Shown here: in pieces, positions 16,541-28,444 of the stretch
Layout: every line of letters begins with the position of its first letter
Position numbering within the stretch: position 1 is the first letter of the stretch
Assembly: GCA_028345065.1 (NCBI GenBank)
Contig: JAOMCN010000013.1
Coordinates: 1 to 46,306, forward strand
DNA length: 46,306 bases
Direction of reading: 5' to 3'
From: Rhodospirillales bacterium
GTDB taxonomy: Bacteria > Pseudomonadota > Alphaproteobacteria > Rhodospirillales > UBA2165
Position numbers and translations under genes: made by a program
The notes under the pieces: generated by a model
What the model was told of the DNA's origin: nothing
Seen by the model: the letters and a program-made list of their open reading frames with translations, nothing else
The model's database searches: none

Positions 16541-16912
16541 TTAAACATTCGATGGAATATTTTTAACTATAAAATGCAGATTTTCCTTCGGTGGTACAAT
16601 ATCCGTCACCAGATCTTTTATGAGAACCTTATTAGATAAAGGTTCAATGGTTGTATCCCTATTTAACAAACGCGTGGTACAGGCATATTGAGTTTTCCCA
16701 TCAACCATGACCATACATTCTTTACAGGCATTAGCGTTGATACAACTATACCGAACCGCTAACGATGAATCGATATTTGTACGAATCCACATGATTGCAT
16801 CAAGCACGGACATACCCTCACGATATGGTACACGGTAGACTTCAAAATGGGGTTCCTCATTTTGAGCGCCCCGTTTAACGGTGATTGTCACCCTATCCTT
16901 CATTTCATTCAT
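16541..16912 (-). CDS. Small 2Fe-2S ferredoxin-domain protein, SdhB/FrdB N-terminal type
   Basis: A 123-residue protein similar to the N-terminal ferredoxin domain of succinate dehydrogenase/fumarate reductase iron-sulfur subunits, but with no C-terminal 3Fe/4Fe domain. The cluster ligands read C-INANA-C-KE-C followed eleven residues later by another cysteine (C-x5-C-x2-C-x11-C), one residue longer in the first gap than the usual C-x4-C. The start ATG overlaps the flavoprotein stop by four bases (ATGA), so the two subunits are translationally coupled. It probably passes electrons between the flavoprotein and an unidentified acceptor. Confidence 0.75.
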   Translation of the reverse strand: MNEMKDRVTITVKRGAQNEEPHFEVYRVPYREGMSVLDAIMWIRTNIDSSLAVRYSCINANACKECMVMVDGKTQYACTTRLLNRDTTIEPLSNKVLIKDLVTDIVPPKENLHFIVKNIPSNV

Positions 16913-18621
16913 CTAGCGTTTTTTAATTCACTAAAGTTTTTAGATGTTACGAATCTCGAATTTAACGAGCCATTCCTATCGAGACTTATGGACTGGTTTC
17001 GTTCAAAAGACTGTTTCGTTTCAGTAAAGTCTTCCCTCTGATGTGCACCTCGGCTTTCTGTACGATTTAAAGCTGATAGCGTAACTGCTTCGGCAGTCAG
17101 CAATCCTGACCGAAGATCAAACCAATCTTGAAGTGTAAGATTAAACGCCTGTCCTTTGGCAGGTGTTACTTCCTCAAGGTTCTCCCGAATTGATCGGAGG
17201 CGTAATAGGGTTTTTTTCAGTTTTAGACCTGTTCGCAACACACCAACATTCTGCCACATTAAGTTTTGAAGTTCAGCCCATATTTGCCCAAGCTCCGCGT
17301 GTTCAGGATCGTCACTATGCTTACAGGAAATCAAATTATTAAGAGAATCAAGATGCCTAATTCCACTCTTATTTGACCAACCTCTTTGTTTACCTGTGGC
17401 ATAGATTGCTGAAAACCTTCCCGCTCTTTCTCCGAAAACAAAAGCCTCAACAAGAGCGTTACCAGACAGTCGATTAGCACCATTTGCCCCACCAACGGCC
17501 TCGCCCGCAGCATAAAGCCCTAACACACTTGTCTCCATTCGGCTATTAACCTTAATACCCCCCATGTGATAATGAGCAATAGGCGCAACTTCAATTGGAC
17601 GCTTTGTAAGATCTATGCCGTTAGCTGCCAACCTGTCGATAACTGGCCCAAATGCGGACCGTAATTCCTCCTCCAACAAATGTTCAAAACTAAGGTACAC
17701 ACCCCCGTTAGATGTTGCACGTCCCGCCTCTTCTTCTTTAGTAATTGCATATGAAATTATATCACGTGTCGTAAGATATTTACCTTCATCTTGGCCTCCA
17801 TATTCATGAACGAACTCTTCTCCTTTTGCATTCCTTAACCTACCACCAAGTTTGTAGCGAAATGGATCCCACATTATCGGATCCATACCAACCAACCTAG
17901 GCGCTAAATGCCCAATGGGAAAAAACTGAGGGAATTCCATATCGATTAACTCTGCACCAGCCCGTAATGCCATCGCGTAACCATCCCCATTCATGTTTGC
18001 TGATGCGCTATTTCGCGAATACAAACGCGTTAAACCCCCAGCCGCAATGATGACAGCTTTTGCCGCTATAGTAACCGGGGTTTGATCTGCAAGATTAAAT
18101 CCAACAGCGCCAACGACTACACCATCTTCAACAACGACGTCGGTAATCAAGAGGCCACTAATTCGGGTTACCTCGGCATTACGCACTATTTGTGTTCTTA
18201 GACACTTCGCAACAGCGGGACCAGTATTTAAAAAATCCACATAAACGCATCGCGGTTTTCTATGACCAGGGGCTCCAACACCGGTTATTTTTCCATTTTT
18301 TCTCGCCCAACCCACTTTCCAATCATCCATTTCTCGAATTCGATCAATTGCCTCTTTACATAAAACAGATGAAAGTTCTTCATTACAAAGACCCCTTCCT
18401 GCTAAGAGGGTGTCTTCAAGATGCATTGTCCAGTGATCTGGTTCTTCATCGCCAAGAGCAGCAGCTGTTGTCATTTGCGCCATAATTGTCGCGCCCCCGC
18501 GACCAATCATGCTTTTATCAGCTATTATGACTTTGGCCCCATTTCTTGCTGCAGCAATCGCCGCGTACATCCCGGAACCTCCAGCCCCAATGATAAATAT
18601 ATCAGTTTCAAGGTGAACCAT
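16909..18621 (-). CDS. FAD-dependent fumarate reductase/succinate dehydrogenase-like flavoprotein
   Basis: A 570-residue soluble flavoprotein of the fumarate reductase/L-aspartate oxidase superfamily. The N-terminal FIIGAGGSGMYAAIAA is the FAD-binding Rossmann motif; GRGGATIMAQ follows where covalent-FAD members have a histidine, so FAD is probably non-covalent. Active-site motifs of the dicarboxylate-handling group are present: TTRDIISYA (proton-transfer arginine), HYHMGGI near residue 350, and GANRLSGNAL with the substrate-binding arginine. A dehydrogenase or reductase acting on a small organic acid is likely, with the adjacent 2Fe-2S protein as electron partner. No membrane anchor gene is linked. 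It is divergent from the GntR-oxc operon, and true SdhA is unlikely because the genetic setting is wrong. Confidence 0.8.
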   Translation of the reverse strand: MVHLETDIFIIGAGGSGMYAAIAAARNGAKVIIADKSMIGRGGATIMAQMTTAAALGDEEPDHWTMHLEDTLLAGRGLCNEELSSVLCKEAIDRIREMDDWKVGWARKNGKITGVGAPGHRKPRCVYVDFLNTGPAVAKCLRTQIVRNAEVTRISGLLITDVVVEDGVVVGAVGFNLADQTPVTIAAKAVIIAAGGLTRLYSRNSASANMNGDGYAMALRAGAELIDMEFPQFFPIGHLAPRLVGMDPIMWDPFRYKLGGRLRNAKGEEFVHEYGGQDEGKYLTTRDIISYAITKEEEAGRATSNGGVYLSFEHLLEEELRSAFGPVIDRLAANGIDLTKRPIEVAPIAHYHMGGIKVNSRMETSVLGLYAAGEAVGGANGANRLSGNALVEAFVFGERAGRFSAIYATGKQRGWSNKSGIRHLDSLNNLISCKHSDDPEHAELGQIWAELQNLMWQNVGVLRTGLKLKKTLLRLRSIRENLEEVTPAKGQAFNLTLQDWFDLRSGLLTAEAVTLSALNRTESRGAHQREDFTETKQSFERNQSISLDRNGSLNSRFVTSKNFSELKNAR

Positions 18622-18872: not shown

Positions 18873-19562
18873 ATGGCCTCACCTCAACTTATTCTTCAGC
18901 CAGTTAGCGAAAACATAAGCCTCAAAGATAAGAGCCACGGCATTTTAAAAAGTGCCATTACTGCGATGGATATTTATGCTACCAACGCCCAATTGAAACT
19001 CGATGAAAGAAAACTTTCTGAACAGCTCGGTATAAGTAGAACTCCTCTACGTGAGGCTTTGGCTCGATTAGAGGAAGAAGGTCTTGTTACCATCGTACCT
19101 CGAATGGGTGTTTATATCACCCGGAAAACAAAACAAGAAATCATTGAAATGATTACTGTATGGGCAGCACTCGAAAGCATGGCTGCTCGACTTATTGCCG
19201 AAAACGCGTCCGATATGGAGATCGCGTCACTTAGAGTAATTTTCAGTGACTTTTGGGACGGAGGTGTTGCTGCTCGGATAGATGAATATTCCGATCTAAA
19301 TATTAGATTCCATCAAACCATACTTGAACTGAGCCGTTGCCAATTATTAAAGGAGACAGCGGATAAACTATTTTTGCATATGCGTGGAATAAGGGCTCGT
19401 ACTATAAACGAGGAGGATCGGGCATCTCGCTCCATAATTGACCATCTATCAATAATCGAAGCCCTAGAAAGTCGGGATGCTGAACTCGCTGAAAATTTGG
19501 TCCGTGAACATGCACTCAATCTCGCAAACCATGTAGAAAAATACGTCGATTATCTGAGTTGA
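18873..19562 (+). CDS. GntR family transcriptional regulator, FCD subfamily
   Basis: A 229-residue DNA-binding regulator. Residues about 25-85 form the winged helix: LKLDERKLSEQLGISRTPLREALARLEEEGLV is the canonical GntR recognition region. Residues about 95-215 form the all-helical FCD ligand domain, with the metal/ligand-binding pattern DLNIRFHQTI, DHLSIIEAL and VREHALNL. Members sense organic acids or acyl compounds. It lies 48 bp upstream of oxc on the same strand and divergent from the flavoprotein gene, so it probably controls both units, with oxalate, oxalyl-CoA or formate-related ligands as candidates. It starts at the ATG at 18873. Confidence 0.9.
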   Translation: MASPQLILQPVSENISLKDKSHGILKSAITAMDIYATNAQLKLDERKLSEQLGISRTPLREALARLEEEGLVTIVPRMGVYITRKTKQEIIEMITVWAALESMAARLIAENASDMEIASLRVIFSDFWDGGVAARIDEYSDLNIRFHQTILELSRCQLLKETADKLFLHMRGIRARTINEEDRASRSIIDHLSIIEALESRDAELAENLVREHALNLANHVEKYVDYLS

Positions 19563-19610: not shown

Positions 19611-21345
19611 TTGAAAACTGCAGTTGATACTCAAGAGAATGAAGAAGAAATGGGTGAGTTAACAGACGGCTTTCATCTCATTATAGACGCCCTCAAACTC
19701 AACGGAATCAAGACAATATATAATGTGCCTGGCATTCCGATCACGGATTTGGGACGCCATATGCAGGCTAATGGCATGCGCGTTCTATCCTTTCGACATG
19801 AACAGGCGGCTGGTTATGCGGCTGCGATTGCTGGTTTTTTAACAAAAAAACCTGGCGTTTGCATGACAGTATCAGCACCTGGGTTTTTGAATGGTTTAAC
19901 AGCTCTAGCGCATGCTACTACGAACTGCTTTCCGATGATACTGATATCCGGTTCGTCCGAACGAGAGATCGTTGATCTTATGCAAGGAGATTACGAAGAG
20001 ATGGATCAATTAGCGGTGGCCAAGACACTTTGCAAGGCAGCCTACCGTATATTGCACGTGGAGGATATAGGTATAGGAATCGCGCGAGCTTATCGTGCCG
20101 CCGTGTCCGGCCGACCGGGTGGTGTCTACCTTGATTTACCTGCATCACTCTTAGGCCAAACGATGGGAACAGACGAAGGGGCTAACTCTCTTGTAAAAGT
20201 AGTAGATGGGGCGCCTGCACAGATCCCAGCATCAGAAGCGATAGAACGGGCGCTTAATGTCCTAAAAAGTGCTGAACGTCCTCTCATTATCCTTGGTAAA
20301 GGGGCTGCATATGCGCAGGCCGATATTGAGATTCGGGCTTTTATTGAAAAAAGTGGTGTCCCGTACCTGCCTATGAGTATGGCTAAGGGACTTCTTCCAG
20401 ACACGCACCCTCAATCCGCAGGCCCGGCGCGATCCTTGGTGTTAAAGGAATCTGATGTGGTGATGCTGATTGGTGCCCGACTCAATTGGTTATTATCCCA
20501 TGGCAAAGGGAAAGGCTGGGGCAAATTGCCGAAAAAATTTATCCAAATTGATATTGAACCTAGAGAAATGGATAGTAACGTCGAAATCGCGGCCCCATTA
20601 GTTGGGGATATTGACTCATGCGTGAAGGCGTTACTTGAAGGGATGGGAGAGGCTTGGCCCCCCCCCGCCTGCTGACTGGATCAATCAAGTAAGCGCTAAA
20701 AAGGACACCAATATCGCACGCATGGCGCCCAAATTACAGAATAACAATGTGCCCATGGATTTTCATGGAGCTTTGGGGACCCTGAGTAGGATCATTGCGG
20801 ATCGGCCCGATACAGTACTTGTCAATGAAGGGGCCAACACGCTCGATTTTGCGCGCTCCATTATTGATATCCACAAACCTCGCAAGCGTTTGGACGTTGG
20901 CACCTGGGGGGTAATGGGTGTTGGTATGGGACAGGCAATCGCTGCAGCTGTTGAAACAGGCAGCCCGGTTCTAGCGGTGGAAGGCGATAGCGCTTTTGGT
21001 TTTTCAGGTATGGAAATTGAGACCATTGCTCGTTACAGCTTGCCAATTTGTGTGGTTGTTTTTAATAACGGAGGGATCTATCGGGGCACAGATATAAACC
21101 CTTCGGGTGGATCAGATTCGGCAACAACTGTGTTTGCAAAAGATATACGCTACGACAAAATGATGGAAGCGTTTGGAGGGTGTGGATACAATGCTACTTC
21201 TCCTGATGAATTGAAACGCGCGGTGATTGAAGCCCTGGATTCTGGAAAGCCAAGCTTAGTAAATGCGGTGATTGATGAGGAAGCTGGAACCGAGAGTGGG
21301 CGCATCGGGAACCTCAATCCGCAGAGCGTTGTATCAAAAAAATAA
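19611..21345 (+). pseudogene. oxc: Oxalyl-CoA decarboxylase, interrupted by a +1 frameshift in a C9 run
   Basis: Two overlapping frames (19611-20675 and 20635-21345) together encode a full oxalyl-CoA decarboxylase. Removing one C from the nine-C run at 20658-20666 gives one 577-residue protein, the family length. Oxc is a thiamine-diphosphate enzyme converting oxalyl-CoA to formyl-CoA and CO2. Seen motifs: the cofactor-activating glutamate in FRHEQ (E64), GDYEEMDQ (Y128/E129, equivalent to the substrate-site Tyr-Glu pair of Oxalobacter Oxc), and in the second part GDSAFGF...NNGGIYRG (ThDP/Mg motif and active-site tyrosine) and ESGRI. These favour genuine Oxc over 2-hydroxyacyl-CoA lyase. The start is TTG at 19611 with a GGAGGA ribosome binding site, although an in-frame ATG at 19650 is possible. 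The break may be a sequencing error, a phase-variable tract or a real mutation. Confidence 0.9.
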
Positions 21346-21386: not shown

Positions 21387-22643
21387 ATGAAAGCTCTCGA
21401 AGGCATTAAAATTCTTGATTTTACTCACGTTCAATCAGGTCCAACTTGTACACAGCTGCTCGCCTGGCTCGGTGCCGACGTAATAAAAGTCGAAAGACCG
21501 GGTATTGGTGATATCACTCGAGGTCAACTCGTAGATATTCCGGACGTAGATTCTCTTTATTTTACCATGCTGAATTCGAATAAACGTTCAATAACTCTCG
21601 ATACAAAAAATGAAACTGGTAAAGAGATATTGATAAGATTAATCAAATCCTGCGATGTACTGGTGGAGAATTTTGCGCCCGGAGCGTTGGACCGTATGGG
21701 ATTTCCCTGGGAACGAATTCAAGAACTTAATCCTCGGATTACTTATGCCTCAGTTAAAGGCTTTGGTCCTGGCCCCTACGAAGACTGTAAAGTTTATGAG
21801 AATGTGGCTCAGTGTACAGGAGGGGCTGCCTCAACGACGGGTTTTGATGATGGACCTCCTTTGGTCACAGGTGCACAAATTGGGGATAGTGGCACCGGCC
21901 TAAACCTTGCCTTCGGGATAGTTGCGGCACTTTTTCAACGAGTAACGAGCGGACGGGGGCAAAGGGTCCAAGCAGCTATGCAAGATGGGGTTTTAAATCT
22001 AGCTCGTGTCAAACTACGGGATCAACAGCGTTTAGCCCACGGTCCGTTGACTGAGTATCCGGTAAATACTGATGTTGATGAAACGCCAAGGGCCGGCAAT
22101 GCTTCCGGTGGAGGTCAACCTGGATGGGCTGTCCGGACCAAAGGTGGTGGGCCAAACGATTACATTTATGTGATTATTCAACCCCCAGGTTGGGCTAATT
22201 ATATGGAACTCTGTGGCCGACCCGAATTAGTCGATGACCCGGAATGGTCAACACCGGCTGCACGATTACCCAAACTGGATAAATGTTTCAAAATTATTGA
22301 AGAATGGACACTAACAAAAACAAAACGAGAAGCAATGGACATTTTAAATGCCCGAGATATACCATGTGGACCAATCCTATCTATGAAGGAAATTGCTGAT
22401 GAACCTGCCCTTAGAAATACTGGAACCGTCGTAGAGGTCGATCATCCAACGCGGGGAAAATATTTGACCGTTGGAATGCCCGTGAAACTCTCAGATTCTG
22501 AAGCAAAAGTTCAATCATCACCCCTTTTAGGAGAACACACGGAAGAAATACTATTAGATGTCTTGGGTTTAAGTAGGGAAGAAGTCAATGCTGCATGGAA
22601 CAGTGGCGCTTTAGGAGAACCAGCAGCAAAAACAATCGACTAG
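21387..22643 (+). CDS. frc: Formyl-CoA:oxalate CoA-transferase
   Basis: A 418-residue class III (family III) CoA-transferase. It moves CoA from formyl-CoA to oxalate, producing oxalyl-CoA for Oxc and releasing formate. The sequence follows Oxalobacter Frc closely: [12 protein letters not shown] at the start, [23 protein letters not shown], and [10 protein letters not shown] with the catalytic aspartate at D167. The mobile glycine loop GGGQPGW near residue 240 is present, and a [11 protein letters not shown]-terminal motif. The length is within ten residues of the known enzyme. It starts 41 bp after the oxc stop and belongs to the same operon. CoA-transferases with this loop are usually annotated as Frc with good reliability. 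Confidence 0.93.
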
Positions 22644-22709: not shown

Positions 22710-23624
22710 ATGAGGTTAGTAATTCATGGTCAACAGGCTTTTGGAAAAGCCGTACTTGAAAAGCTTATTGAGAGAGGCGATAACGTCGTCGGGGTTTTTT
22801 GCGCACCAGATAAAGAAGGACGTCCTCTTGATCCACTAAAAGAGTGTGCCCTCGAAAATAGACTAACAGTTCATCAACCGACTTCTTGGAAAACTGATGA
22901 AGCGCACGAACTTATGAATTCCTTCAAGCCAGACCTTTGCGTTATGGCTTATGTAACATTATTTGTTTCCCAAGAGGTTCTCGACGCCCCGACCCATGGC
23001 ACTATCCAATACCATCCCTCTCTTTTACCCCTCCACCGAGGGCCTAGTTCAATAAACTGGCCAATAATAAAAGGTGCCAAAAAAACCGGTCTCTCTATAT
23101 TTTGGCCCGATGCCGGTCTAGATGAAGGTCCCATACTAATCCAAAAGGAAGTCGAAATTGGACCCGATGACACTTTGGGTAGCATTTATTTCAATCATCT
23201 TTTTCCAATGGGTGTGGATGCGATGATTGAAGGCGTCGACTTGGTAAATACCGGAAACCCGCCCAAAATCGACCAAAACCATGAAAAGGCTACCTACGAA
23301 AGCTGGTGTAGGAAAGATGATGCGAAAGTGGATTGGACGAAGCCAGTTCAAGAAGTTTACAACTTAATTCGGGGCACTAACCCTCAGCCAGGCGCCTGGA
23401 CTACCTTTCAAGGGAATGAATTAAAACTTTTTAATAGTAACATGGTCGATGCAGATGGAACTCCCGGGTTGATCATCGATACATCTAACGAAGGAATAGT
23501 CGTGGCTGCGGACGGTGGTGGAATTCTAATTCAGCGTGTACGTCCTCATGATGCCGGCAAAATTGCCGCACATGAATTTGTTGCAAACTACAGACTTTCA
23601 GTAGGTGCTAGTTTTGGATTATGA
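22710..23624 (+). CDS. Stand-alone formyltransferase, homologous to the hydrolase domain of 10-formyl-THF dehydrogenase
   Basis: A 304-residue protein matching the N-terminal folate-binding formyltransferase/hydrolase domain of ALDH1L1-type 10-formyltetrahydrofolate dehydrogenase: the GQQAFGKAVLEKL start, VVGVFCAPDKEG, YHPSLLPLHRGPSSINW with catalytic histidine H102, and SIFWPDAGLDEGPILIQKE with D138. A C-terminal formyltransferase C-like subdomain follows (about 205-304, KVDWTKPVQEVYNLIRG). The aldehyde dehydrogenase and carrier domains of ALDH1L1 are absent. It sits between frc and fhs in the operon, so a C1-transfer role is likely: either hydrolysis of 10-formyl-THF or, more speculatively, formyl transfer between formyl-CoA and THF. 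It is not a housekeeping Met-tRNA formyltransferase by motif or context. Confidence 0.82.
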   Translation: MRLVIHGQQAFGKAVLEKLIERGDNVVGVFCAPDKEGRPLDPLKECALENRLTVHQPTSWKTDEAHELMNSFKPDLCVMAYVTLFVSQEVLDAPTHGTIQYHPSLLPLHRGPSSINWPIIKGAKKTGLSIFWPDAGLDEGPILIQKEVEIGPDDTLGSIYFNHLFPMGVDAMIEGVDLVNTGNPPKIDQNHEKATYESWCRKDDAKVDWTKPVQEVYNLIRGTNPQPGAWTTFQGNELKLFNSNMVDADGTPGLIIDTSNEGIVVAADGGGILIQRVRPHDAGKIAAHEFVANYRLSVGASFGL

Positions 23625-23713
23625 ACAAAATATTATTGTAAATTATTGGAATATACATACTTAGAAAATCAATGTAAGTATTTGGGCACAATTTAAGATT
23701 GGAAACTAAAAGA

Positions 23714-25384
23714 ATGGCAAAATCGGACATAGAAATAGCGCGAGATGCGAAAATGCAGCCAATCACGGAAGTTGGCACCAAATTAAATATCCCACCAGAA
23801 CAACTTTTACATTATGGCCCACACAAGGCCAAAATTTCGTTCGATTATATTAATTCATTGAAATACAAAACTGATGGTAAATTAATTCTGATCACTGCCA
23901 TAACACCAACCCCAGCCGGTGAAGGTAAAACGACTACCACTGTCGGCCTAGGTGATGGCCTTAATAGGATCGGGAAACGTACAGCAATTTGTTTGCGTGA
24001 ACCGTCTCTCGGCCCATGTTTTGGCATGAAAGGAGGCGCCGCTGGTGGAGGATACGCGCAAGTCGTTCCAATGGAGGATATTAACCTTCATTTCACTGGC
24101 GATTTTCACGCCATAGGGGTGGCCAATAATTTGCTAGCAGCACTAACCGATAACCATATTTATTGGGGTAATGAATTAGGCTTCGATTCCAGGCGGGTAA
24201 GTTGGAGACGCGTGGTCGATATGAATGACCGGGCTCTCCGGACCATAACAAATTCTCTAGGGGGCGTAGCCAATGGTTTTCCTCGGGAAGATCACTTTGA
24301 TATCACCGTGGCCTCCGAGGTTATGGCAATTTTTTGTCTATCTGAAGATCTGAATGATCTTACGAATAGAATTGGACAAATTGTTGTAGGATACACGCGT
24401 AACCGGGAAGCAATACGTGCAAAGGATCTACTAGCTGAAGGACCTATGGCTGTACTTTTAAAAGATGCATTCGCACCAAATTTTGTTCAAACTTTGGAAA
24501 ATAATCCTGCATTCATTCACGGTGGCCCATTTGCCAATATAGCCCACGGATGTAATTCTGTTATTGCCACCAAGACAGCTTTAAAATTGGCCGACTATGT
24601 TGTAACCGAAGCTGGATTTGGTGCGGACTTAGGTGCGGAAAAATTTTTCGACATTAAATGCCGAAAAGCAGGTCTCAGCCCTTCCGCCGCGGTCATTGTT
24701 GCCACAGTACGAGCGTTGAAAATGCACGGGGGAGTTGGCAAAGACGCATTGAATGAGGAGAATGTTGATGCCGTAAAATTAGGTTGCGCTAACCTAGCCC
24801 GCCACATTGAAAATGTTAAATTGTTTGGCGTTCCAGTAGTGGTGGCAATTAACCAGTTCGTAAACGATACTCATGCTGAACTTGACGCCGTTCGTACCAC
24901 CGCAGACGGATTTGGTGCTAAGGCCATAATTGCACATCATTGGGCAGATGGATCAGAGGGCACAGAAGAACTGGCTAAACACGTCGTGGACTTGGTGGAT
25001 AGCGATACAGCCCAATTCAAATGTCTCTACCCAGACGAAATGCCGCTCATTGAGAAGATTGAAACGATCGCAACTAAGATTTATAGGGCATCATCGGTGT
25101 CTACAGATGCGAGCGTACGGAAACAAATTGACGAGCTTCAAGAGGACTTTGGCCATCTCCCGATCTGTGTTGCCAAGACACAATACAGCTTTTCTACCAA
25201 TCCTGATTTGAAAGGTGCACCCATTAATCATGAATTAGCAATTCGTGAAGTAAGATTATCTGCAGGAGCCGGCTTTATTGTCGTTGTTACTGGTGCCATT
25301 ATGACTATGCCCGGTCTCCCTCGAGTACCAGCGGCCAATAGTATTCGGCTTAACAGCGCCGGTGAAATTGAGGGATTATTTTAA
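23714..25384 (+). CDS. fhs: Formate-tetrahydrofolate ligase
   Basis: A 556-residue enzyme that makes 10-formyl-THF from formate, ATP and THF. The ATG at 23714 gives the family-like start [13 protein letters not shown]; a TTG at 23699 would add five residues. The ATP-binding loop is [13 protein letters not shown] near residue 65-76, followed by [23 protein letters not shown] and the folate-site region; later [19 protein letters not shown] and [24 protein letters not shown] are also diagnostic. Length is normal. As the last gene of the oxc-frc operon it would capture the formate released by Frc into folate C1 metabolism. Its end overlaps the convergent tctA end by nine bases. Confidence 0.96.
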
Positions 25385-26875
25385 ATATTTTTCATATAAC
25401 AGTTTTGCTACTGGCAATAGTAATAAAATCAATGCAAGAACTGAAATCACACTCGCAAACGGTCGTGTAAAGAAGATTGAGAACGAACCACCGGAAATCA
25501 AAAGTGATTGTCTGAGGGCCGGTTCGGCCAAGGGGCCCAGAACGATAGCTAAAACAGCCGGCGCCATCGGATAATTAAGTTTGCGCATCAGATATCCTAC
25601 AACACCAAATATCAGCATTAACCAAACATCGTGCATATCCATAGTCGGAACGAAACCACCTACAATACATAAGATGAAAATTATCGGCGCTAGGATTGTA
25701 AATGGTAGTCTCAGGACCCAGATAAAAGCCGGGATAAAAGCTATATTGATGAGAAGAGAAAATAAGTTGGCAGCATACAGGCTTGCAATCAAACCCCAAA
25801 CAAACTCCTTGTGTTCGACAAATAGCAACGGACCGGGTTCCAAACCCCAAATAACCATACCGCCCAATAAAATGGCAGTCGTTGGAGAACCAGGAATACC
25901 CAAAGTTAACATTGGCAACATTGCACCGGTTGAAGCAGCATTGTTCGCTGCCTCCGGAGCAACTACGCCGTCCACATTACCCTTTCCAAAACTCTCGCGG
26001 TCTTTTGAAATGGTTTTAGCAAGACCGTAAGCCATCAACGCTCCAGGAGTGGCTCCTGCGGCTGGAAGTATTCCAACGAAATAACCGAGGAAGGACCCCA
26101 TCACCATCGTTTTTAACGTTAGTTTTAATTCGCGTAAATTAGCCAGAATTCTCTTAAAACTAACGGAGGCCTGAGAAATCATTACCTCGCCCTGAGATAC
26201 CTCAATCGTCCACAACATTTCGGCAATACCGTAGATTCCTATGGCCAATACCAGAAAATTAATGCCGTGAAAAAAACCCGGAAGACCCCCAAAAATCAGT
26301 CGAGGTTCACCCGAAATAATATCTAAACCAACCGCACCAAATACTAGTCCAATACAGATGGAAAATAACGTCTTTGGTATATCATCCCCACCAAGCCCCA
26401 CGAAGGTAGCAAAGGCCATCAACATTAAGGCAAATATCTCAGGAGCTCCAAAGGTCAATGCGACTTCGGCTAGAGGTGGCGCAAATAAAGTAAACAAGAT
26501 AACCGAAATAGTCCCCCCTACGAATGATGCCGTTGCTGCTGCAACAAGCGCCTTGTCAGCCAAACCCTTAAGTGCTAGTGGCCGGCCATCGAATGTCGTA
26601 GCAACTGCCGTTGAGGCACCGGGAATTCCTAACATAATAGAACTGATGGCACCTCCATACATAGCGCCATAATAAATAGCGGCTAGAAAAATAACTGCGC
26701 CCGTAGGAGGAACCAAAAAAGTCATGGGCAATAGGATTGCCACACCATTTACTGAGCCTAAACCCGGCATAGCCCCAATAAATAACCCTAGGGCGCAGCC
26801 AACAATAACCAGAACCAGATTAAGTGGCTCGAACGCGATGGCAAAGCCATCAATAAGAAGAGTTAAAGTTTCCAT
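25376..26875 (-). CDS. tctA: Tripartite tricarboxylate transporter, large membrane subunit TctA
   Basis: A 499-residue inner-membrane protein with about ten to twelve hydrophobic segments across its length. Two internally repeated family motifs are seen: [20 protein letters not shown] near residue 35 and [19 protein letters not shown] near residue 265. TctA forms the transport channel of secondary, sodium- or proton-driven uptake systems that use a periplasmic binding protein. It is the last gene of tctC-tctB-tctA and meets fhs tail to tail. The family moves citrate, tartrate, terephthalate and other carboxylates; the neighbouring oxalate genes suggest a small dicarboxylate here, by inference only. 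Confidence 0.93.
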
Positions 26876-26905: not shown

Positions 26906-27403
26906 TTAATAGAAAAAGTCAAAAATTGGTAAAAATAATGGTTCCGTAAAACCTTTAGGGAGAGTCTTTTGGAGTGCGATTTCAAAAAAGAGAAATGTAA
27001 TAACTGGTGTTGATAAAGCAAATGCACTAGTCAATCCCCACGAATGCCCCCCCATAAAACGCAAATAAAAAATCAGAAATATTGGAATTGCCCCGTAAGC
27101 ACCAACAATATGAAACAATCCTATGAACACAGTAATTGCAACAGCATTCAAGAGGAATAATTTTAGAGATCTCCGGTCCATAAATGGGCTGTCTGATTGA
27201 GATTCAGGGGTAACGTGTTTAGCCCAGCGAAAAATGATAGCAACGCAGCTACAAAGCATTCCAGCGGCTAACCAAAATGGCCAGGCACCACCGCCTGGCC
27301 CCTCTCCAGCAATCCATCCAATCGGCAGTTCTGCGCTTTTCCACATCAGATAAATGGAGAAGATACCCATAACAAGCCCCATGACAAGTTCTGCCATGCG
27401 CAT
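26906..27403 (-). CDS. tctB: Tripartite tricarboxylate transporter, small membrane subunit TctB
   Basis: A 165-residue membrane protein with four predicted membrane helices (around residues 5-22, 38-60, 80-105 and 115-150), the usual TctB layout. Sequence conservation in this family is low, so the call rests on length, topology and its position between tctC and tctA. A strong ribosome binding site (AAGGAGGGGG) precedes the ATG at 27403. Confidence 0.85.
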   Translation of the reverse strand: MRMAELVMGLVMGIFSIYLMWKSAELPIGWIAGEGPGGGAWPFWLAAGMLCSCVAIIFRWAKHVTPESQSDSPFMDRRSLKLFLLNAVAITVFIGLFHIVGAYGAIPIFLIFYLRFMGGHSWGLTSAFALSTPVITFLFFEIALQKTLPKGFTEPLFLPIFDFFY

Positions 27404-27457: not shown

Positions 27458-28444
27458 CTACTTAAGGGCACCCATTTTTTGTAATATCGCTTTTTGGACA
27501 GCTTTTTCCCTCATCCAGTAGCTCATCAGAGCGTCACCGGTAAGAAACCCGCCTTGAAGGCTCTTTTTCTTCATGTATCCTTGCCATGCGCTGGAATCAA
27601 AAATCTTCTTGAAAAGTCCCTGGTAATAGCTTTTCGCTCCTGCACTCATTCCGGGCGCACCAACAACAGTTCTCTGCATAAAGTAGACAAAATCTTTACC
27701 CAACTCTTTAAATGTTGGCGCATCTTTGAACAATGGTAGTCGTTTTGGCGTGAACGCACCTAGGGGTACAGTCTTACCAGCCTGATAGAAACCAAGCTGT
27801 TCGGACGGATTGTTAACCGTCGAGTTGGCATTATTACCCGCGAGTTCTTTGGCAACACGCCCTCCACCCTTGTAAGGAACGTACTTCATATTAAGACCAT
27901 AGGCCTTATTCAAAAAGTCTGTCAGAATGTTGTCCTCAGAATTTTTTCCAGTCCCTGCCATGATCCATTTATTACCGGCAGCTTTCGCGGCTTTGACAAA
28001 TTCATCAACATTCTTAATACCCGAATCTTTATTTACCCACAGAAGGAAGGTGTCTTCTGCCATACGACCGACTGGGGTAAATTTGGAAATATCAACACCA
28101 AGCCCAGGCTGGCGCAAAGGCGTGGTGTAGAAGCTATTTAAAGTAAACATGATGGTGTGATCGGGATCCTTAGCATTCTTGACATAAACTAAAGCCTCCG
28201 CGCCTGAACCGCCCGGCTTATTAATTGGCGTGTATGGTTTTGAAGACATTTTGTTCTTTGCAATGATGCTTTGTATAAAACGTACTGCCTTATCTGCACC
28301 ACCACCTTTACCGGCCATCACGATGAATTCGACTGGTTTTTTAGGCTCCCATGCAATAGCAGAATTGAATGTAAACAAAGAAAAACCAAAACAAAGACTG
28401 AGAACTAAACCCAGACTTAATACCCCAGTACTTACTTTTTTCAT
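27458..28444 (-). CDS. tctC: Tripartite tricarboxylate transporter, periplasmic substrate-binding protein TctC
   Basis: A 328-residue exported binding protein. The N-terminus (MKKVSTG... followed by a hydrophobic stretch) ends in AIAWEPKKP, a typical signal peptidase I cleavage region, so it lies in the periplasm. The mature part has the TctC/Bug motifs: PVEFIVMAGKGGGADKAVRFI, INKPGGSGAEALVYV, and KYVPYKGGGRVAKELAGN. The Bug family binds carboxylates such as citrate, tartrate or aromatic acids with high affinity. It is the first gene of the tct operon. The ligand is not evident from sequence; oxalate or a related acid is suggested by the adjacent oxc-frc cluster. Confidence 0.92.
   Translation of the reverse strand: MKKVSTGVLSLGLVLSLCFGFSLFTFNSAIAWEPKKPVEFIVMAGKGGGADKAVRFIQSIIAKNKMSSKPYTPINKPGGSGAEALVYVKNAKDPDHTIMFTLNSFYTTPLRQPGLGVDISKFTPVGRMAEDTFLLWVNKDSGIKNVDEFVKAAKAAGNKWIMAGTGKNSEDNILTDFLNKAYGLNMKYVPYKGGGRVAKELAGNNANSTVNNPSEQLGFYQAGKTVPLGAFTPKRLPLFKDAPTFKELGKDFVYFMQRTVVGAPGMSAGAKSYYQGLFKKIFDSSAWQGYMKKKSLQGGFLTGDALMSYWMREKAVQKAILQKMGALK

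Follow-up and report, generated by a model that had tools for sequence, protein, structure and literature searches.

A 46,306-nucleotide stretch of contig JAOMCN010000013.1 from a Rhodospirillales bacterium (hereafter the window) encodes, between frc and fhs, a stand-alone formyltransferase (FT; 22710..23624, + strand, 304 aa) of the type found as the hydrolase domain of ALDH1L. The locus raises the question of which formyl donor and acceptor such a domain would serve on its own. A sequence-only reading of the window proposed that formyl-CoA could be the donor, providing an ATP-free route to 10-formyl-THF.

The FT gene and its operon

The FT reading frame begins with ATG, has no internal stop (ORF and translation check), and is filled end to end by the Pfam domains Formyl_trans_N (1.1e-28) and Formyl_trans_C (1e-21), so that none of the 304 residues remain to form a carrier or dehydrogenase domain. 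It is a real gene rather than a chance ORF, because orthologues 49–73% identical to it occur in 15 of 59 relatives of the genome and a scan of public genomes yielded at least 530 confirmed relatives. The Fmt proteins of the same relatives are only 26–35% identical and are clearly separate from the FT orthologues. The best solved relatives of FT are ALDH1L1 hydrolase domains (4qpd, E 4.7e-64), below which rank Fmt (4e-45) and then HypX (2e-12). In an AlphaFold2 model built from 59 family members (mean pLDDT 95), the predicted fold is nearest to the ALDH1L hydrolase domain according to Foldseek, whereas a second structural aligner places Fmt level with ALDH1L (equal Z) and HypX lower; because the two rank differently, the fold by itself does not tell which function FT has.

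The operon consists, on the + strand, of a gene for a GntR/FCD regulator (18873..19562), which is kept upstream in most linked loci, oxc for oxalyl-CoA decarboxylase, frc for formyl-CoA:oxalate CoA-transferase (21387..22643; TIGR03253 649 bits, cut-off 504), FT, and fhs for formate–THF ligase (23699..25384; PF01268 875 bits). FT thus lies directly after frc (66 nt gap) and directly before fhs (74 nt gap), as the sequence-only reading had it. The oxc frame is broken in the assembly into an N-terminal part (19611..20675) and a C-terminal part in the next frame (20635..21345), which meet at a run of nine C (20658..20666) that exceeds every other C/G run in the window. In relatives oxc is a single open frame rather than two overlapping ones, and the split may stem from misassembly, from slippage, or from a genuine disruption of the gene. 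The window operon has both enzymes of the oxalate pathway (TIGR03254/TIGR03253); the known pathway ends at formate, while FT and fhs add a folate branch.

Beyond fhs, on the opposite strand, are genes for a tripartite tricarboxylate transporter, TctA (25376..26875), TctB (26906..27403), and the binding protein TctC (27458..28444). Many other loci also have TctA and TctC beside the operon, and the transporter is likely involved in substrate uptake. A pair encoding a fumarate-reductase-like flavoprotein and a 2Fe-2S protein (16541–18621, − strand) is divergent from the operon; we considered it as a member of the module and rejected it, since it is absent beside FT in other loci.

Active site and nearest relatives

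Across 100 family members, His102, Ser104, Asp138, and Tyr196 are invariant, position 110 is Arg or Lys, and Phe85 is found in 80%. The four invariant residues align to ALDH1L His106, Ser108, Asp142, and Tyr200, and position 110 to Arg114 (PMC4388273), and the folate residues of the active site are retained. FT shares with the ALDH1L1 hydrolase domain the whole-length fold, the His-Ser-Asp triad, and equivalents of Arg114 and Tyr200, which bears out its first description as such a domain with His102 and Asp138 kept and no dehydrogenase domain. Unlike ALDH1L1, it lacks the 4'-phosphopantetheine carrier and C-terminal ALDH domains, has Gln or Cys in place of Ile104, and contains RGPS instead of RGAS.

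The position two before the catalytic His (Q100 in the FT of the window) is Gln in 84 members, Cys in 16, and Asn in none of the 100. In Fmt, ArnA, and GART this residue is an Asn crucial for formylating amines, while ALDH1L has Ile104 (PMC4388273) and the HypX sequences that we compared have Val or Ile. The acceptor-side residues P112-S113...W117 likewise fit HypX (RGPS...W) and not Fmt (RGAAPIQR). Fmt has the same two Pfam domains and the same overall fold as FT; however, FT scores 169.8 bits against the TIGR00460 cut-off of 201.5, lacks the catalytic Asn, and occurs alongside a separate Fmt in the same genomes, and we reject its assignment as an Fmt paralogue on these grounds.

The N-domain of HypX/HoxX, which takes part in synthesis of the CO ligand of NiFe-hydrogenase, shares with FT the RGPSxxxW motif and the absence of the Asn. 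It has been proposed from crystal structures to pass a formyl group between 10-formyl-THF and CoA, the activity that we propose for FT (PMC6802093). FT differs from HypX in having no enoyl-CoA-hydratase-like (decarbonylase) domain and no Arg131, in its low identity (~20–28%), and in its genomic company. By inferred numbering, HypX Arg131, a CoA phosphate contact, falls on the invariant Phe161 of FT, and where HypX has Gln15, members of the FT family have Lys, Arg, or Gln; since the CoA contacts of HypX are mostly not conserved, we claim no CoA site in FT. In ALDH1L the formyl acceptor is the thiol of the 4'-phosphopantetheine arm, and the isolated domain acts only with an added thiol, beta-mercaptoethanol (PMC4388273). 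As both relatives that lack the Asn use a thiol, HypX as proposed, and FT has no carrier, free CoA would be the obvious partner.

In a deep tree of FT, ALDH1L, Fmt, and HypX, ALDH1L falls among the FTs, but with weak support and where long branches meet, so we make no statement on the origin of FT. On this tree, with modest support, the FT of one Dehalococcoidia MAG (L104) lies on a branch adjacent to that of the animal ALDH1L hydrolase domain; its surroundings are near-identical to those in a second Dehalococcoidia MAG (L107).

Linkage and co-occurrence with formyl-CoA-forming enzymes

Among the 80 best matches of the public-genome scan, which were taken with their flanks, 58 have Frc encoded directly upstream on the same strand, at a median distance of 80 nt, and 43 have Fhs encoded as the next gene downstream; the same GntR regulator, often with TctA/TctC, recurs around FT. 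The expectation that the same domain would be found beside frc elsewhere is thereby borne out. These loci are found in alpha- and gammaproteobacteria and in MAGs of SAR324, Binatia, Gemmatimonadota, and Chloroflexota. As they are the nearest matches to an operon-bearing window, they may overstate linkage, and we therefore tested co-occurrence on 289 alphaproteobacterial genomes drawn evenly from the class.

The slot before frc is occupied either by OXC or, in about half of the linked operons, by a different, uncharacterised ThDP enzyme that we call TPP28 (L028:5935-7668 and ~40 other loci, directly before frc). TPP28 is ~26% identical to OXC, its closest PDB relative is HACL/S, and an Arg position that binds acyl-CoA in OXC and HACL appears to have been substituted in it. 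Mapping the OXC and TPP28 labels onto the Frc tree requires 12 switches, and well-supported branches force 7 of these; the labels are interleaved on the FT tree as well. The window Frc is 82% identical to the Frc of a TPP28 operon, although its own operon has OXC. That OXC and TPP28 have replaced each other repeatedly while Frc and FT were retained suggests that both yield one and the same product, which makes TPP28 a candidate second formyl-CoA-forming enzyme. As its product is deduced in this way, statistics are also given with TPP28 genomes left out.

FT is present in 21 of the 289 genomes. An enzyme linked to formyl-CoA (OXC, TPP28, called at ≥66% identity to L028:5935-7668, or a HACL orthologue) occurs in all 21 of these and in 8 of the 268 genomes without FT (table 21/0/8/260; Fisher p ~1e-25); when the 13 TPP28 genomes are left out the table becomes 11/0/5/260 (p ~3e-16). 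The FT-bearing genomes span 15 families, and related genomes among them are not fully independent. They divide into nine with OXC, ten with TPP28, and two with a HACL orthologue only; one of the TPP28 genomes (G266) encodes a HACL orthologue as well. In the two HACL-only genomes, the only OXC-like gene scores below the OXC cut-off and encodes a HACL/S orthologue 89% or 78% identical to L117:5436-7064, which itself scores 829 bits against crystallised ApbHACL/S and 814 bits against RuHACL. FT and Frc occur together in 18 genomes, and in 8 of these they are unlinked, being far apart or on different contigs; the co-occurrence thus does not stem from operon transfer alone. Fhs is found in 20 of the 21 genomes with FT and in 110 of the 268 without it, and the latter rule out Fhs as such as the link of FT.

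Outside the class sample, we followed up 21 FT genes without a linked Frc. In 11 cases Frc is encoded elsewhere in the genome. In seven others (G066–G071 and G078) no Frc exceeds the cut-off, and the OXC model matches an enzyme at 512–540 bits. We examined four of these enzymes, and they are HACLs, namely the G078 enzyme and three ~70% identical to it. The HACLs of genomes with FT and without Frc are 70–89% identical to the enzyme that scores 829 bits against crystallised HACL/S, while two Chloroflexota genomes with FT encode a weaker HACL-like enzyme. Three genomes break the pattern, having FT but no recognised source of formyl-CoA: nothing recognisable was found in G076, and searches of the close relatives G040 and G056 for OXC, TPP28, and HACL found none. 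In G040, FT adjoins another ThDP enzyme and an aldehyde dehydrogenase. In G056 it is located directly 3' of a dipeptide-type ABC transporter operon (L025, 9236–15970).

Conversely, G361 and G087 contain oxc and frc without FT, so oxalate use does not need FT. Oxalate is not a sufficient explanation of the link either, since FT persists with HACL where Frc is absent. Taken with the unlinked cases, this indicates that FT is tied to formyl-CoA and not to oxalate, and the proposal of formyl-CoA as its substrate stands on these genomic grounds.

The neighbors of lone FT genes, such as genes for a carboxylesterase, a dipeptide ABC transporter, or a Usp protein, include no common partner. In three loci from one genus of the family (L031, L033, and L035), FT adjoins an NAD-linked molybdenum formate dehydrogenase (FdsBA), and in two of them oxc lies beyond FdsBA, outside the frc-FT-fhs order.

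Proposed activity and direction

We consider it probable that FT is a stand-alone formyl-CoA/10-formyl-THF formyltransferase that couples the CoA and folate one-carbon pools (formyl-CoA + THF <=> 10-formyl-THF + CoA-SH). In this soluble enzyme THF would occupy the conserved folate pocket and the pantetheine arm of CoA would enter from the acceptor side; His102 and Asp138 would catalyse transfer between N10 and the thiol, with Ser104 orienting His102. The chemistry would be that of the ALDH1L domain, except that free CoA would take the place of the 4'-phosphopantetheine arm. Formyl-CoA made by oxalyl-CoA decarboxylase or 2-hydroxyacyl-CoA lyase would thereby be joined to the folate one-carbon pool. 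We infer CoA as the partner, as well as reversibility and direction, from the gene's relatives and company.

In genomes with the lyase only, 10-formyl-THF would likely be the net product, with CoA released and C1 biosynthesis supplied. The situation in oxalate operons is less simple. Frc remakes oxalyl-CoA from formyl-CoA, and each formyl-CoA is spent on the next oxalate. A drain to THF must therefore be repaid by another CoA donor and would otherwise bring no net gain, which makes the ATP-free route doubtful. The reverse direction is equally possible. FT may act there as an overflow that frees CoA, or it may run backwards and, with Fhs, produce the formyl-CoA that starts or replenishes the Frc/Oxc cycle.

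That FT serves priming only, with 10-formyl-THF and CoA giving formyl-CoA and Fhs plus FT acting as a two-step formyl-CoA synthetase for the cycle, is the same activity restricted to one net flow, and its probability is contained in that of the bidirectional proposal. Frc needs formyl-CoA before the first oxalate can be activated, FT sits between frc and fhs, and HypX has been proposed to work in this direction (PMC6802093). However, priming would leave FT in HACL genomes without Frc unexplained, and we regard it as unlikely to be the whole role.

The main rival is that FT is a hydrolase that frees formate from 10-formyl-THF, recovering THF that Fhs would otherwise tie up when the breakdown of oxalate or formyl-CoA raises formate. 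Co-occurrence by itself does not separate the two readings, since every organism that makes formyl-CoA makes formate too; Fhs nearly always accompanies FT, and the closest relative is the ALDH1L hydrolase domain, although that domain in isolation needs an added thiol (PMC4388273). A hydrolase next to Fhs would also run an ATP-burning cycle, and in the class sample FT tracks formyl-CoA enzymes rather than the many genomes that have Fhs without it. We judge this reading improbable. Less probable still is formylation of an amine, a sugar nucleotide, or another thiol such as that of a carrier protein, which would suit a superfamily that includes Fmt, ArnA, and the sugar N-formyltransferases and a protein with an Fmt-type C-terminal domain and equal structural Z to Fmt, but is countered by the missing amine-formylating Asn, the replaced tRNA/amine-side motif, the separate Fmt, and the finding that no carrier or sugar gene is conserved beside FT in the loci compared, unlike Frc, Fhs, and OXC/TPP28. 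The preferred reading thus remains exchange between formyl-CoA and THF.

The sequence-only reading knew of no established enzyme with this activity in the family. This holds for demonstrated stand-alone enzymes, of which our literature search, covering few subscription papers, found none; HypX, however, provides a proposed precedent. The superfamily and its chemistry are already known, and judging from sequence what appears new is the partner and setting of FT. If TPP28 does form formyl-CoA, the finding would amount to more than that. It is conceivable, and we suggest it tentatively, that FT is the first stand-alone formyl-CoA:THF formyltransferase and a widespread bridge between the pools, with TPP28 as a second, previously unrecognised formyl-CoA-forming ThDP enzyme.

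The usual view of formyl-CoA is that of an intermediate on the way to formate, the assimilation of which then costs ATP via Fhs. Direct exchange between formyl-CoA and folate, if confirmed, would change the view of how oxalate and alpha-hydroxyacid users gain C1 units, and synthetic C1 pathways through formyl-CoA (HACL- or OXC-based) would reach 10-formyl-THF with a single enzyme. Uncultured marine and soil bacteria commonly carry the family, whose members would otherwise be taken for Fmt paralogues; its occurrence is nearly confined to cells able to make formyl-CoA, and there it probably moves formyl groups between CoA and folate.
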